Below, piece by piece: positions 34,351 through 40,000 of a stretch of 40,000 bases of DNA. This DNA is from Archaeoglobales archaeon (lineage in GTDB: Archaea; Halobacteriota; Archaeoglobi; Archaeoglobales; Archaeoglobaceae). Positions within the stretch are counted from its first letter, which is position 1; each line of letters starts with the position of its first letter. The stretch is from NCBI GenBank assembly GCA_030055595.1, contig JASFYH010000016.1:1-40000 (forward strand), read 5' to 3'. The notes beneath the pieces are model-generated. The model searched no databases, had not been told where the DNA came from, and was given only the letters and a program-made list of their open reading frames with translations. The translations under genes and the position numbers were made by a program.

Positions 34351-35322
34351 ATGGACTTCAAAAAGATCCTTGAAGAGTTACCCGCAGGAGTCGCGATTCT
34401 TGATGAGAGGCTAAGAATAGTTTTAGTAAACAAAAGGATCGTTGAAAAATCAGGAGTTACTACTGAATTCAACCCCTTGGACACAGTCCATCCGGAGGAG
34501 AGAAAAACCGCTGAGGAGATCTTTCGAAAAATTATTGAAGGAAAATTAGCAGAAGTTCCATATCCTCTTCTTTTCAGGGTTATTAGAAAGGAGGGCTATC
34601 AGTGGAACGAGATTAGATGGAAGGTAGTCAAAGATCAGGGCAGGGTTTACTACGTTTTAGTCTTTACAGACGTTACCGAAAGGGTTTTAATGCAAAGGAG
34701 ATTGGAAAACCTTCTTGATTATGTTAGGCTTTTGAACAGCATCTTGAGGCACGACATATCAAACATTTTGACCGCTGTTTATTCTTATGCGGAAATGTTG
34801 GAAGAGGAGCTTAATCAAAAATTTGTGGAAAAATTGAAAGCTTCGGTTTTAAAAGGCATAGATCTCATTAAAAAGATTCGAGAGCTCGAGAATTCAACAA
34901 ATGAGAAAGTGGAACTTTACAGCTTGAGAAAAGTCTTAGAAGAAACTGCAAGGGGACATGAAGTCGAGCTTTGCGTGTCTGGTGATGCATATGTTTATGT
35001 CAATGAAGGGATCTACAGCATTTTCGAGAACCTCATCCGAAACTCTGTTACTCATGGAAAAGCTAAAAAGATCGAAGTCGAAATAAAAACTTCCGATAGG
35101 ATCTATTTGAGTTTTGAGGACGATGGAGTGGGAATTCCGGAAAACCTTAGGGATAGGATCTTTGAGAAAGGCTTTTCCATTTCTGGTAGCACTGGTTTGG
35201 GGCTGTTCATAGTCAAAAAGCTAATTGAGAGTTATGGTGGAGAGATCAAGCTTGAAGATTCAAAAAAGGGTGCTAAGTTTCTTCTTTCTTTCCCTTTCCT
35301 GGAGCATCCTCGAGTCTTGTAA
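34351..35322 (+). CDS. Cytosolic PAS-domain sensor histidine kinase
   Basis: A 323-residue soluble kinase. An N-terminal PAS/PAC domain (about 4-118) includes LPAGVAILDERLRIVLVN, and VYYVLVFTDVTERV is its PAC end. The dimerisation helix carries phospho-acceptor H134 in ILRHDISNIL. The ATPase domain has N-box ENLIRNSVTHG (N227, N231), G1 DDGVGI (257-262) and G2 STGLGLFIVKK (280-290). It has no transmembrane segment, so it senses an internal signal. No response regulator is adjacent, as is common in archaea. The last 50 bases overlap the convergent kinase gene. Confidence 0.93.
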   Translation: MDFKKILEELPAGVAILDERLRIVLVNKRIVEKSGVTTEFNPLDTVHPEERKTAEEIFRKIIEGKLAEVPYPLLFRVIRKEGYQWNEIRWKVVKDQGRVYYVLVFTDVTERVLMQRRLENLLDYVRLLNSILRHDISNILTAVYSYAEMLEEELNQKFVEKLKASVLKGIDLIKKIRELENSTNEKVELYSLRKVLEETARGHEVELCVSGDAYVYVNEGIYSIFENLIRNSVTHGKAKKIEVEIKTSDRIYLSFEDDGVGIPENLRDRIFEKGFSISGSTGLGLFIVKKLIESYGGEIKLEDSKKGAKFLLSFPFLEHPRVL

Positions 35323-36823
35323 ATCGATGATCGGGATCGGGAAAATATAGGATCAGAGTATTTTTCCCCTCAAACTCTAATTTCCCTTCATACTTCTCCA
35401 TTAGCTTCTTGACGATAAATAGTCCCATTCCAGAACCTTTTTCGTTGTATTCTCTTTTGAAAAGGTTTTCTTTTGCCTTCTCTGAAAATCCTGTCCCATT
35501 ATCCCAGAATTTAACAACGATCTGATCTCCTTTTTTGATCTCCGCATAGATCTTATTTGCCTTTCCATGCTTTATTGCGTTGTCGATCAGATTTCCGAAG
35601 ATCGTATAGATCCCTTCATCCGCAAGCACTTTTGCGTCTCCGCTGATCTCCACTTCGATCGGAAAAGCTTTTTTAACCTCTTCAATCACTTTTCGTATCT
35701 CAAATTCCCCCAACTCTGCTTTTTCGAGCTGTTTTACCACTTTTATTATATTTATTCCACGATCAACGTATTTTTCAACCCTCTCGAGCAATTTAAGATC
35801 TTTTTCAGTCTTGTATAACTCTAAATAACCCCTAACAGACGTAAATACATTCATTAAATCATGTCGGAGCACTTTTAATAGAAATCTAAGCTCTTCTTCC
35901 GCTTTTGAAATTCTTTCAAGCATATCATTGATCCCCTTTCCGCTTTCGATCTCCTTTGGGCCTTTTAGAGTAATTCTATCAGAGGATGAGGCTTCTCTTG
36001 TAAATTCTTCAAGTTTCAAGAGCTTTGAGATTAAACCTTTTTCGACAAAAAGCACAGAGAGCACGAAGATGAAAAATACCACGAATAAGAATCCACCGAG
36101 CAATAACAGGAAATTGGTGTAAAGGATCTCAGTTATCGGATTCCGCATTTCCAAGCTGAAGGGTATTTCTTTACCAAAAACGTCTTCAACATATAAAGAC
36201 CTGACAATTAAATCGCTTTTTGTTAGGTTTTCTGCTTTAGCATTGATCTTTATTTTAGAGAGCATCAGGATCTTCTCAAACTCTGCGATCTCGTCATTTA
36301 AGATCCTGCCCATCAGCAAGAAACCATTAGCTTCTCCGCTACCATCGCTTTTTAGTATTGGGCTCGAAGTTAAAACAAAGACGTCTCCATTTTGATAAAG
36401 ATATCCATCCTTGCCCATTAGTTCTTTTGTGGAGAAAACTTCAGGAGGCTCTTTTTCGTTCCAATTCCGATCGTAAAACTTTACATAAACAACTTTACCC
36501 TCTCGATCGAAAAAGACCATCAAGTTGATCTTTGCATTAACGAAAGTATCCTTTAGCAAGTTTGAAGTGATGTAGTTTTCATTAAATTCCCTAACGAATT
36601 CGTAAGTGTCATCCCAAATTGCCCAATCCATGCAAAATCTCTTTAGATTTAGTAGTTCTCTCTCTAAAAGTTTCTTAAATGCGAATTCTTTTTGTAAAGC
36701 GATCTCTTCTATTATCTTGTTTGCAGAATCCCCTTCGAAAATGAGCGTAAGATAGGTGAGTGAGAGAAATAAAGTGAGTGCTATGATCGTTCCGGTGATT
36801 AGGATCCTTTCTCTTATTTTCAC
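35273..36823 (-). CDS. Membrane sensor histidine kinase with CHASE4-type extracellular domain
   Basis: A 516-residue kinase. TM1 is at about 8-28, and an extracytoplasmic CHASE4-like domain spans about 32-235, with its signature CMDWAIWDDTYEFV. TM2 is at about 240-261, followed by a HAMP-like linker 263-316. Phospho-acceptor H321 lies in VLRHDLMNVFTSVRGYLELY. The ATPase has an N-box like FGNLIDNAIKHGKA, G1 DNGTGF and G2 GSGMGLFIVKKLMEKY. The kinase core is clearly similar to the convergent PAS kinase, so the two are probable paralogues with different sensors. The start is GTG, with a TATA box 26 bases upstream. No response regulator is adjacent. The C-terminal tail (DAPGKGKKEET) overlaps the other kinase gene. 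Confidence 0.93.
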   Translation of the reverse strand: MKIRERILITGTIIALTLFLSLTYLTLIFEGDSANKIIEEIALQKEFAFKKLLERELLNLKRFCMDWAIWDDTYEFVREFNENYITSNLLKDTFVNAKINLMVFFDREGKVVYVKFYDRNWNEKEPPEVFSTKELMGKDGYLYQNGDVFVLTSSPILKSDGSGEANGFLLMGRILNDEIAEFEKILMLSKIKINAKAENLTKSDLIVRSLYVEDVFGKEIPFSLEMRNPITEILYTNFLLLLGGFLFVVFFIFVLSVLFVEKGLISKLLKLEEFTREASSSDRITLKGPKEIESGKGINDMLERISKAEEELRFLLKVLRHDLMNVFTSVRGYLELYKTEKDLKLLERVEKYVDRGINIIKVVKQLEKAELGEFEIRKVIEEVKKAFPIEVEISGDAKVLADEGIYTIFGNLIDNAIKHGKANKIYAEIKKGDQIVVKFWDNGTGFSEKAKENLFKREYNEKGSGMGLFIVKKLMEKYEGKLEFEGKNTLILYFPDPDHRFTRLEDAPGKGKKEET

Positions 36824-37797: not shown

Positions 37798-37815
37798 GTG
37801 GTGAGATCTGGAATT

Positions 37816-39000
37816 ATGCAAAGAGTTTTATTTGTAACGGGAAAAGGAGGAGTTGGAAAATCCACCTTATCGAGTGCAACAGCTTTTAAAACTTCTAAAC
37901 TTGGTTATGATACTCTTTTGATCTCAACCGATCCCGCACACACCTTGAGTGATCTTTTCGGAATCAGGATCAACGCAGAGGAGACAAGAATAGCTGAAAA
38001 TTTAGAGGCAGTGCAAGTTGATGTGGTTCATGAAGTCACGAAGCATTATGCTGAGATCATGGAATTTATAACAGAGGTTCTAAAGGCGAGGCAAATCGAC
38101 GAAATCGTTGCTTATGAGATCGCAAACTTTCCCGGGATCACAGGAGCTGCAGCTTTGCTCAAACTTCTCAGATATCTCGAAGAGGGGACACACGATGTAT
38201 ACGTTCTTGACATGGTCCCTTCTGGAGATGCACTTAGGATCCTTTATTTACCATTCATTTTCAGTAGGTTCAGTCGAAAATTTATGAAGCTTTTTGCCCC
38301 ATTCATAGATTTTGGGAGACCGCTTGCTTCGATTACAAATATACCATTACCTTCAAGGGAAGTTATAGAAACCGAAGTAAAGCTTTTGGACATGCTGGAG
38401 AGGATCCATGCCCTCATAACCGATCCCAAGGTCACAAGTTTGAGGATCGTTATGAATCCGGACGCATTTAGCATAGAAAATGCCAAAAGAACGCTTGTTC
38501 AAGCTTCGATCTATGGTCTCAATACTGATCTGGTTTTTATAAACAAGATCTATCCAGAAGAACTTTCCAATGGATACCTTGGTGATTGGTTAAAGGCACA
38601 AAAGGAGTATTTGGCAAGATGTGAGCTTGAATTCAGTCCAATTCCAATAAAAAAGGTTAGACTGTTTAGCAAGGAGGTTAGGGGACTCGAGGCTATAGAG
38701 AGTTTGACCAATGAAGTCTTTGGAGAGGAGGATCCCGCTAAGGTTTATCACGAGAGTAGACCAATTGAGATCTTAAATTATTCAAAGGGGTTCGAGATCG
38801 TAGTGAGAATTCCGAATGTGAAAAAAGAGGATCTTGAAGTAGAGAGATTTGGTGATGAGTTATTGGTCCATTTAACAACTGAGATCGGCAGATCTGCGAT
38901 CATTTTGCCTTTGCCAGCAATAGCCTACAAGTATTCAATGAAGAGGGCAAAGATTATTAATGGTGAATTGCATATTTATTTCGGTGAGGTGGATGAGTGA
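37816..39000 (+). CDS. ArsA/Get3-family ATPase with C-terminal Hsp20-like domain
   Basis: A 394-residue SIMIBI-class ATPase of the ArsA/Get3 type. Get3 delivers tail-anchored membrane proteins, whereas ArsA drives arsenite export. The P-loop VTGKGGVGKSTLS is at 7-19, switch I STDPAHTLSDLFG at about 41-53, and the A-loop-like FINKIYPEEL later. The Get3 CxxC zinc pair and ArsA metal-site cysteines are absent. From about residue 320 a small beta-sandwich follows (KGFEIVVRIPNVKKEDLEVE, ELLVHLTTEIGRSAIILPLP), the ArsA_HSP20-type domain. ATG 37816 with GGTGAGATC upstream is chosen over GTG 37798. No ars genes are adjacent, so a chaperone role is preferred. Confidence 0.9.
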   Translation: MQRVLFVTGKGGVGKSTLSSATAFKTSKLGYDTLLISTDPAHTLSDLFGIRINAEETRIAENLEAVQVDVVHEVTKHYAEIMEFITEVLKARQIDEIVAYEIANFPGITGAAALLKLLRYLEEGTHDVYVLDMVPSGDALRILYLPFIFSRFSRKFMKLFAPFIDFGRPLASITNIPLPSREVIETEVKLLDMLERIHALITDPKVTSLRIVMNPDAFSIENAKRTLVQASIYGLNTDLVFINKIYPEELSNGYLGDWLKAQKEYLARCELEFSPIPIKKVRLFSKEVRGLEAIESLTNEVFGEEDPAKVYHESRPIEILNYSKGFEIVVRIPNVKKEDLEVERFGDELLVHLTTEIGRSAIILPLPAIAYKYSMKRAKIINGELHIYFGEVDE

Positions 39001-39178
39001 ACTTATAAGACTCCTTATGAGAACTTTGCCAAAGGAATATGAGGAACCAATGCAACATGTTTTAAAGGCAAAGATCGAGTATTTGAAGGCTCTAAACTCG
39101 CTCATCGAGCTCATTATAAAAGATCTGGAAAAAATGGTTGAAGAAGAGCCAAAAAGAGAGAAATTGAAAGTAGAATAG
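38993..39178 (+). CDS. Small helical protein coupled to ArsA/Get3-like ATPase
   Basis: I do not recognise this 61-residue protein. It begins MSELIRLLMRTLPKEYEEPM, continues with a long amphipathic helix (AKIEYLKALNSLIELIIKDL) and ends with a charged tail (EEEPKREKLKVE). No membrane segment or metal motif is visible. ATG 38993 lies inside the end of the ATPase gene (8-base overlap) and is preceded by a strong Shine-Dalgarno site (GGTGAGGTGG). Translation is therefore tightly coupled, which suggests a subunit or cofactor of the ATPase. The last gene of the operon; T-rich DNA follows. Confidence 0.75.
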   Translation: MSELIRLLMRTLPKEYEEPMQHVLKAKIEYLKALNSLIELIIKDLEKMVEEEPKREKLKVE

Positions 39179-39674: not shown

Positions 39675-40000
39675 TTATAAGCTTTTAAACCCGGAAATTC
39701 TCTCAATCGCTTTATCGAATTCATCAATTAGATAATAAGCTTCAATTCCATACTTTTTAGCATTTTCAGCCATGATTCTGTCGTTCGTGATGAGAATTGA
39801 GTTTGTTAGCTTTGCTGTTGCGATGAAGTAAGCGTCGATTGCTCTACAGCCAGTATTCAGCGCTATTTGATAAGCGATTTCATCGGGATTGTCGATAAGC
39901 ACCACCTTGGACATTATTTCCTCGATAAAGTTTGAAACATCGCTTTTATCGAATCTCCTTGCCAAAGCGCCTGTGAGCTCAACTCTGAACACCCTTGGTT
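39675..40000 (-). CDS. PIN-domain ribonuclease (VapC-type toxin), N-terminus beyond window
   Basis: The frame is open to the window edge, so the gene starts outside. The visible 108 residues are the middle and end of a PIN domain. A conserved Glu lies in FRVELTGALARRF, an Asp in GCRAIDAYFIATAKL and another in SILITNDRIMAENAKKYGIE. Together with the N-terminal Asp that must lie outside the window, these form the acidic Mg2+ site of VapC-type RNases. The C-terminus YYLIDEFDKAIERISGFKSL is intact. A GTG at 39992 is an internal codon, not the real start. The cognate antitoxin may lie upstream, outside the window. Confidence 0.85.
   Translation of the reverse strand, partial: PRVFRVELTGALARRFDKSDVSNFIEEIMSKVVLIDNPDEIAYQIALNTGCRAIDAYFIATAKLTNSILITNDRIMAENAKKYGIEAYYLIDEFDKAIERISGFKSL

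Follow-up and report, generated by a model that had tools for sequence, protein, structure and literature searches.

Why does the gene for a Get3/ArsA-type ATPase end inside a second, very short gene, and what might the product of that gene contribute to a protein that already carries a small heat-shock domain of its own? The question is raised by the last part of the window, i.e. the whole stretch of 40,000 nucleotides analysed here, from an Archaeoglobales genome assembled into 32 contigs (1.55 Mb). The ATPase gene (37816..39000, forward strand, 394 aa) runs from an ATG at 37816 to a stop codon at 38998-39000, with an in-frame GTG at 37798 as a possible longer start. Its product matches the Pfam family ArsA_ATPase over residues 3-300 (E 1.8e-74, 251.2 bits against a cut-off of 24.3) and NCBIfam TIGR00345 (209.6 bits, cut-off 135). 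A C-terminal match to ArsA_HSP20 over residues 324-389 (E 6.3e-9, 35.7 bits against a cut-off of 22.5) places an alpha-crystallin domain at 38785..38982 of the same strand. The translation includes the P-loop TGKGGVGKST, a deviant Walker A motif (37837..37866) most of whose residues are invariant among the 12 rows of alignment A2, followed by STDPAHTLSD (37924..37953), which we take to be switch I and whose residues D39, P40, A41, H42 and D46 are invariant in A2, and by LDMVPSG (38206..38226), presumably switch II, which is replaced by LDCAPTG in the distant Archaeoglobi rows of this alignment. The chain ends five residues past the ArsA_HSP20 match and has no IxI tail. It contains a single cysteine and no CxxC, so that neither the zinc pair of Get3 nor a set of metal-binding cysteines of the ArsA type is possible. 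An earlier description of the locus from its letters alone (the sequence-only reading) had claimed the Hsp20-like C-terminal domain and the lack of both cysteine sets, and all of this holds. An AlphaFold2 model of the ATPase from a two-sequence input reached a mean pLDDT of 37, with values of 46-74 for the alpha-crystallin blocks, and this low-confidence model predicts strands up to residue 390 and returned 8egk, 3igf and 8elf as top Foldseek matches. A search of the source genome at E 1e-3 listed only three other matches to the ATPase, each of 55-66 residues and located near the P-loop.

Among known systems, Get3d (NosGet3d, 8EGK/3IGF; AtGet3d, 8ELF) shares with the window protein a Get3/ArsA ATPase, a C-terminal alpha-crystallin domain and the absence of CxxC. 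The fusion of such an ATPase to an Hsp20-like domain is already known (PF17886; Get3d). Get3d comes from photosynthetic bacteria and plants and, in the available parts of the sources, has no known partner, whereas the ATPase of the window has a coupled microprotein. In addition, the window protein scores 93.1 bits against the NCBIfam equivalog for Get3d (NosAFP), below the cut-off of 325, and in pairwise scores it matches the archaeal Get3 3zq6 (E 3.8e-41) better than the Nostoc Get3d 3igf (E 6.6e-11). Compared with Get3d, it presents the sequence NKIYPE, which was read by eye and appears A-loop-like. According to the accessible text of PMC10248533, the alpha-crystallin domain of Get3d occupies the Get4 site and its role is called unclear, the protein lacks CxxC, a motif also missing from some Get3 proteins, it is able to bind a tail-anchored protein, and Get3d would need new partners if it acts in targeting. 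In PDB sequence searches, the ATPase domain matches archaeal Get3 proteins best (Methanothermobacter thermautotrophicus 3ZQ6, Methanocaldococcus jannaschii 3UG6/3UG7), but the matches span residues 5-308 only and leave the alpha-crystallin domain outside. In the literature consulted, these proteins have no microprotein partner. Canonical Get3/TRC40 is defined by the CxxC zinc pair and the absence of an added C-terminal domain, and the window ATPase differs in both respects. ArsA, the arsenical pump ATPase, belongs to the same superfamily and combines two ATPase halves with metal-site cysteines, while the window protein is a single half with one cysteine. A role in arsenic handling was rejected on account of this single cysteine and because a Pfam scan of seven neighbouring genes in the window showed no ars genes. 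Other ArsA homologues have been linked to gas-vesicle clusters with hsp20 genes (PMC2963123, as far as its available text goes).

The sequence-only reading had the ATPase gene ending within a small helical gene, and the coordinates agree with this: the small ORF (38993..39178, forward strand) extends from an ATG at 38993 to a stop codon at 39176-39178, encodes 61 aa and shares 8 nt with the 3' end of the ATPase gene (38993..39000). A Shine-Dalgarno-like GGTGA is located at 38983..38987, 5 nt before the ATG of the small gene; the site had been recognised correctly, and its description as strong is somewhat generous because the match consists of five bases. AlphaFold2 predicts helices at residues 3-11 and 14-60 with a mean pLDDT of 88, dropping to 69 and then 54 over the last blocks, and the model thus shows the microprotein as a single long helix whose end is less certain. 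In Pfam and NCBIfam, the small family has scattered sub-threshold matches only and none at cut-off, so that the label of an unrecognised gene stands. PDB sequence searches with the family gave nothing below E 0.1, and a plasmid search with the small protein gave no match. An ORF that overlaps the end of its neighbour and has no family match at cut-off could be spurious, or serve purely for translational coupling. Against this, three relatives with ATPase identities of 72-86% retain the same small ORF at 68-84% identity, dN/dS of the small gene is 0.049 relative to the closest relative (the sole pair with an estimable dS) and third-position bias is present in 6/6 pairs among four close relatives. 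This codon evidence rules out a spurious ORF and, together with the standalone copies and the co-occurrence with the ATPase described below, leaves practically no probability for either version of this reading. Judged by its codons, the small ORF is a real gene under purifying selection that belongs to a conserved family.

Co-occurrence with the ATPase was surveyed in 392 genomes of the phylum, with 59 genomes representing the class of the window organism. At E 1e-40, the ATPase is found in 34/59 genomes of this class, and many distant ATPase orthologs (33-40% identity) have a comparable ORF at the same place. Profile A1, built for the microprotein, detects the family in 48/392 genomes; its matches outside the class are in G170, G251 and G321, and in 3/3 the gene lies behind the same kind of ATPase. 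A second microprotein profile, A5, finds 67/392 genomes, and the ATPase profile A2 has matches in 61/392, of which G085 and G150 were left out of the ATPase set since their matches stop before the alpha-crystallin domain. When these tables, which rest on profiles partly built from the same 392 genomes, are combined, the alpha-crystallin ATPase is present in 59 genomes and the small gene in 58 of these 59, while 12 genomes have the small gene only and 321 have neither (Fisher p 5e-56, uncorrected for relatedness). The lone ATPase genome without a small gene is G203, in which a contig end cuts inside the ATPase gene.

The association extends to gene order. By coordinates, the small gene is placed directly downstream of the ATPase gene in 51/59 genomes, i.e. 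28/35 within the class and 23/24 outside it. Of the eight non-adjacent cases, four have the small gene elsewhere in the genome and one is the truncated G203. In G034 and G056 the pair is not found together and the contigs end 154 and 303 bases after the ATPase, and in G024 the small gene adjoins the ATPase on a second contig piece. The expectation voiced before any genome comparison, that relatives would carry a small gene in the same place, is borne out by these counts. The pair is also present outside the class, in the lineages f7 and f32. In f7, 19/20 regions (a tally of 18/20, one of these cut by a contig end, to which L149 was added) encode a microprotein version of ~96-127 aa, counted from the first start and with one protein cut at 90 by a contig end. 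This version carries an extra N-terminal segment that is hydrophobic or amphipathic. In the remaining region, L154, the contig ends inside the ATPase. Two f7 archaeal loci (L147, L152) have tandem alpha-crystallin ATPase genes, with the microprotein seen after the second only. Neighbours examined besides the small gene vary by genome and give no functional lead. A physical partnership of the microprotein and the ATPase is considered likely.

The notable feature of the small protein is its C-terminus, which was missed by the sequence-only reading. The protein ends in KREKLKVE (39152..39175, forward strand), a tail with an IxI/V-type motif that recurs in its orthologs. The tail set comprised the 72 distinct small proteins minus seven tail-less paralogs and the contig-cut L151, leaving 64 complete orthologs. 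As the tail is short and its bearers are all homologous, the counts that follow are not independent. In 63/64 orthologs the protein ends in [I/V/L]-x-[I/V] plus one residue, with one ending V-x-A. Aligned from the C-terminus, position -5 is K/R in 63/64, position -4 is I/V/L in 64/64, position -2 is V/I in 63/64 and A once, and position -1 is mostly E (50/64). A loose pattern ([IVL]x[IVA] plus one polar residue) matches 64/64 orthologs versus 7/425 neighbouring ORFs, and a strict tail pattern matches 52/64 versus 0/425; this background consists of greedy, non-overlapping ORFs of at least 120 aa, taken from 60 loci plus the window rather than from gene annotation. Across the tailed lineages the tail persists, whereas the linker preceding it varies in length and sequence. 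In alignment A1, the four invariant residues (H, E, L, A) are all in the helix and none in the tail.

Free Hsp20 proteins of these archaea end in the same kind of tail. In nine genomes, five of which are genomes of genus g2 without the fused ATPase, 17/17 free Hsp20 (PF00011) proteins match a strict form of the pattern, all with K at position -6, and the two from the window genome end GGKKIKVE and EKKIIPLD. No such tail is found on the ATPases: 0/58 distinct fused ATPases carry it, their chains stop 0-13 residues past the last matched position, and in the alignment the ATPase chain stops where the Hsp20 proteins start their tail. ATPase positions 340 and 342, alternate hydrophobics that presumably belong to strand beta4, are kept as in Hsp20, in 97% and 100% of the 58 proteins. 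The end of the ATPase at the start of the Hsp20 tail and the retention of the beta4 hydrophobics suggest a split small heat-shock module, with the groove on the ATPase and the tail on the microprotein.

In small heat shock proteins such as MjHSP16.5 and its kin, the alpha-crystallin fold and the IxI tail are on one chain, whereas here they are divided between two proteins and the tail-bearing one lacks the alpha-crystallin fold. The IXI tail of MjHSP16.5 docks in the beta4/beta8 groove (PMC3638399, available part), and its sequence is KKGINIE, with the two preceding lysines mattering in docking simulations (PMC12193508, available part). The title of PDB entry 3vqm describes a C-terminal deletion variant of an archaeal small heat shock protein with a C-terminal peptide. 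Binding in trans is described for BAG3, which engages HSP27 through IPV motifs of the same motif class (PMC8047445, available part). Like BAG3-type co-chaperones, the microprotein is not a small heat shock protein and has an IxI/V-type motif ([IVL]x[IVL] in 63/64) with no alpha-crystallin domain, i.e. no Pfam domain at cut-off. BAG3 is eukaryotic, the binding of the microprotein is predicted, and no sequence relation between the two is claimed.

The microprotein is also encoded without the ATPase. The 12 genomes with the small gene only are reduced to nine after setting aside G174 (a fragment of an ATPase at the edge of a contig), G146 (masked beside the small gene, close to a contig end) and G016 (a tail-less paralog only). 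These nine genomes, one 54% and one 89% complete, keep a tailed small gene with no such ATPase found, and include seven of genus g2 as well as G046 and G053 from the window's own genus. A search for ATPase homologues down to E 1e-3 covered 14 genomes, of which 13 lack the ATPase or both genes, and listed no fused ATPase; it returned short P-loop matches, a few Hsp20-like ones and one match of the canonical type (G003). In G051, the ATPase is followed by the small gene, an acetyltransferase-like gene and a carbamoyltransferase-like gene (the last two read by eye), and g2, where the acetyltransferase was assigned by Pfam, shows the same order without the ATPase. Because G051 has this order plus the ATPase, the g2 layout looks as if the ATPase had been lost and the small gene kept. 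G046 and G053, in which the small gene lies beside a lactamase-fold gene as in the window (by eye), look like the same pattern of loss. Since nine ATPase-less genomes keep a tailed microprotein, the ATPase is probably not its sole partner, and the microprotein has at least one further use. The sequence-only reading had proposed a subunit of the ATPase; the coupling in 58/59 genomes fits this, and the nine genomes show that the protein is not solely such a subunit. Free Hsp20 is the obvious candidate partner for the tailed standalone copies.

These standalone copies bear on how the tail is used. According to one alternative, the microprotein mainly partners free Hsp20, its tail plugging or capping the grooves of small heat shock proteins and tuning their oligomers; its place behind the ATPase gene would give shared expression, and contact between the two would be at most indirect. 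The likeness of the tail to those of free Hsp20 and the retention of the tailed gene in ATPase-less genomes, including five examined from g2 with two free Hsp20 genes each, speak for such a role. It would not account for the presence of the small gene in all ATPase genomes but the one with a truncated contig, nor for the adjacency of the two genes within and outside the class. Moreover, all genomes of g8 (7/7) lack both the ATPase and the small gene and yet have two PF17886 matches per genome, so that the small gene cannot be predicted from the presence of a free Hsp20 by itself, and we regard this alternative as rather unlikely.

The microprotein could instead be a helical regulator or membrane adaptor that binds the ATPase via its helices, the I-x-I motif being, for instance, a signal for degradation or for a membrane surface. 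The confinement of the invariant A1 residues to the helix, the hydrophobic or amphipathic N-terminal segment of the f7 versions and the retention of the helix in a tail-less paralog are compatible with this view. The tail, however, is maintained across the tailed lineages despite the variable linker and resembles that of Hsp20, which makes binding through the helices alone distinctly improbable. The docking of the tail in the groove of the ATPase's own alpha-crystallin domain is slightly favoured on balance, with the packing of this domain on the ATPase dimer in Get3d (available part of PMC10248533) weighing against it.

The best frame for the locus is a chaperone or membrane-targeting machine with a further subunit, and the encoding of one such machine by the two genes is given a little better than even chances. 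In the split module proposed here, the first protein would be an ATPase of the Get3 type, presumed by analogy to be a dimer, with an alpha-crystallin fold that lacks a docking tail, and the second a small, helical protein ending in one. The tail (L-K-V-E after basic residues) would most likely insert into the groove at the beta4/beta8 edge of the ATPase's alpha-crystallin domain. The helical part would thereby become an ATPase subunit and might act as a lid, a client adaptor or a regulator of opening and closing. In yeast, Get3 is regulated by Get4/5, and a regulatory role of the microprotein would be analogous. Being of the same kind as the Hsp20 tails of these genomes, the tail may also bind free Hsp20 and thus link an ATP-driven carrier to a passive holdase. 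ATPase regulation and complex formation would be the expected activities, and the clients, assumed from the homology to Get3, would be hydrophobic or membrane proteins. A fuller, speculative version, which we hold to be doubtful, is a module run by ATP, in which motion of the Get3 dimer exposes and hides the groove, the tail docks there or on Hsp20, and clients pass between the holdase and the membrane-targeting carrier.

The new part of this arrangement is the coupled, tailed microprotein, which is undescribed within the literature searched: the titles and abstract openings listed contained no described archaeal partner. A coupled protein with a docking tail of the small heat-shock type offers a specific handle on the role and partners of this domain in Get3, and may represent a prokaryotic counterpart of IxI-using co-chaperones such as BAG3. 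Alpha-crystallin-bearing Get3 itself extends beyond the phototrophs in which it was first described, to 59/392 genomes of the phylum and one Fusobacterium record. The latter provided the one bacterial full-length match to the ATPase among the matches listed. Fusobacterium vincentii SB055 (NZ_CP084075.1, recorded as a 2.1-Mb plasmid; L183 3495-5848) carries two tandem genes for alpha-crystallin-bearing Get3-like ATPases, and the 260 bases preceding the next gene contain no ORF of at least 45 aa on that strand.

Additional forms of the microprotein were observed. In five f7 loci (L172-L176), the microprotein domain occurs a second time, ending in K-V-K-V-E or T-V-K-V-E, behind a cysteine-rich domain that Pfam identifies as DUF2769 in L172 and that looks similar by eye in the remaining four. 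The tail-less paralog is present in L069, L072, L074, L076, L077, L079 and L083; in L076 the next gene encodes a HEAT-repeat protein (Pfam), in L069, L072, L074 and L079 it is similar by eye, and L077 has a different neighbour. Elsewhere in the window, a PAS/histidine-kinase gene and a CHASE4 histidine-kinase gene occupy opposite strands at 34351-36823 with overlapping 3' ends, and a PIN-domain gene on the reverse strand (39675-39998) runs off the window end.
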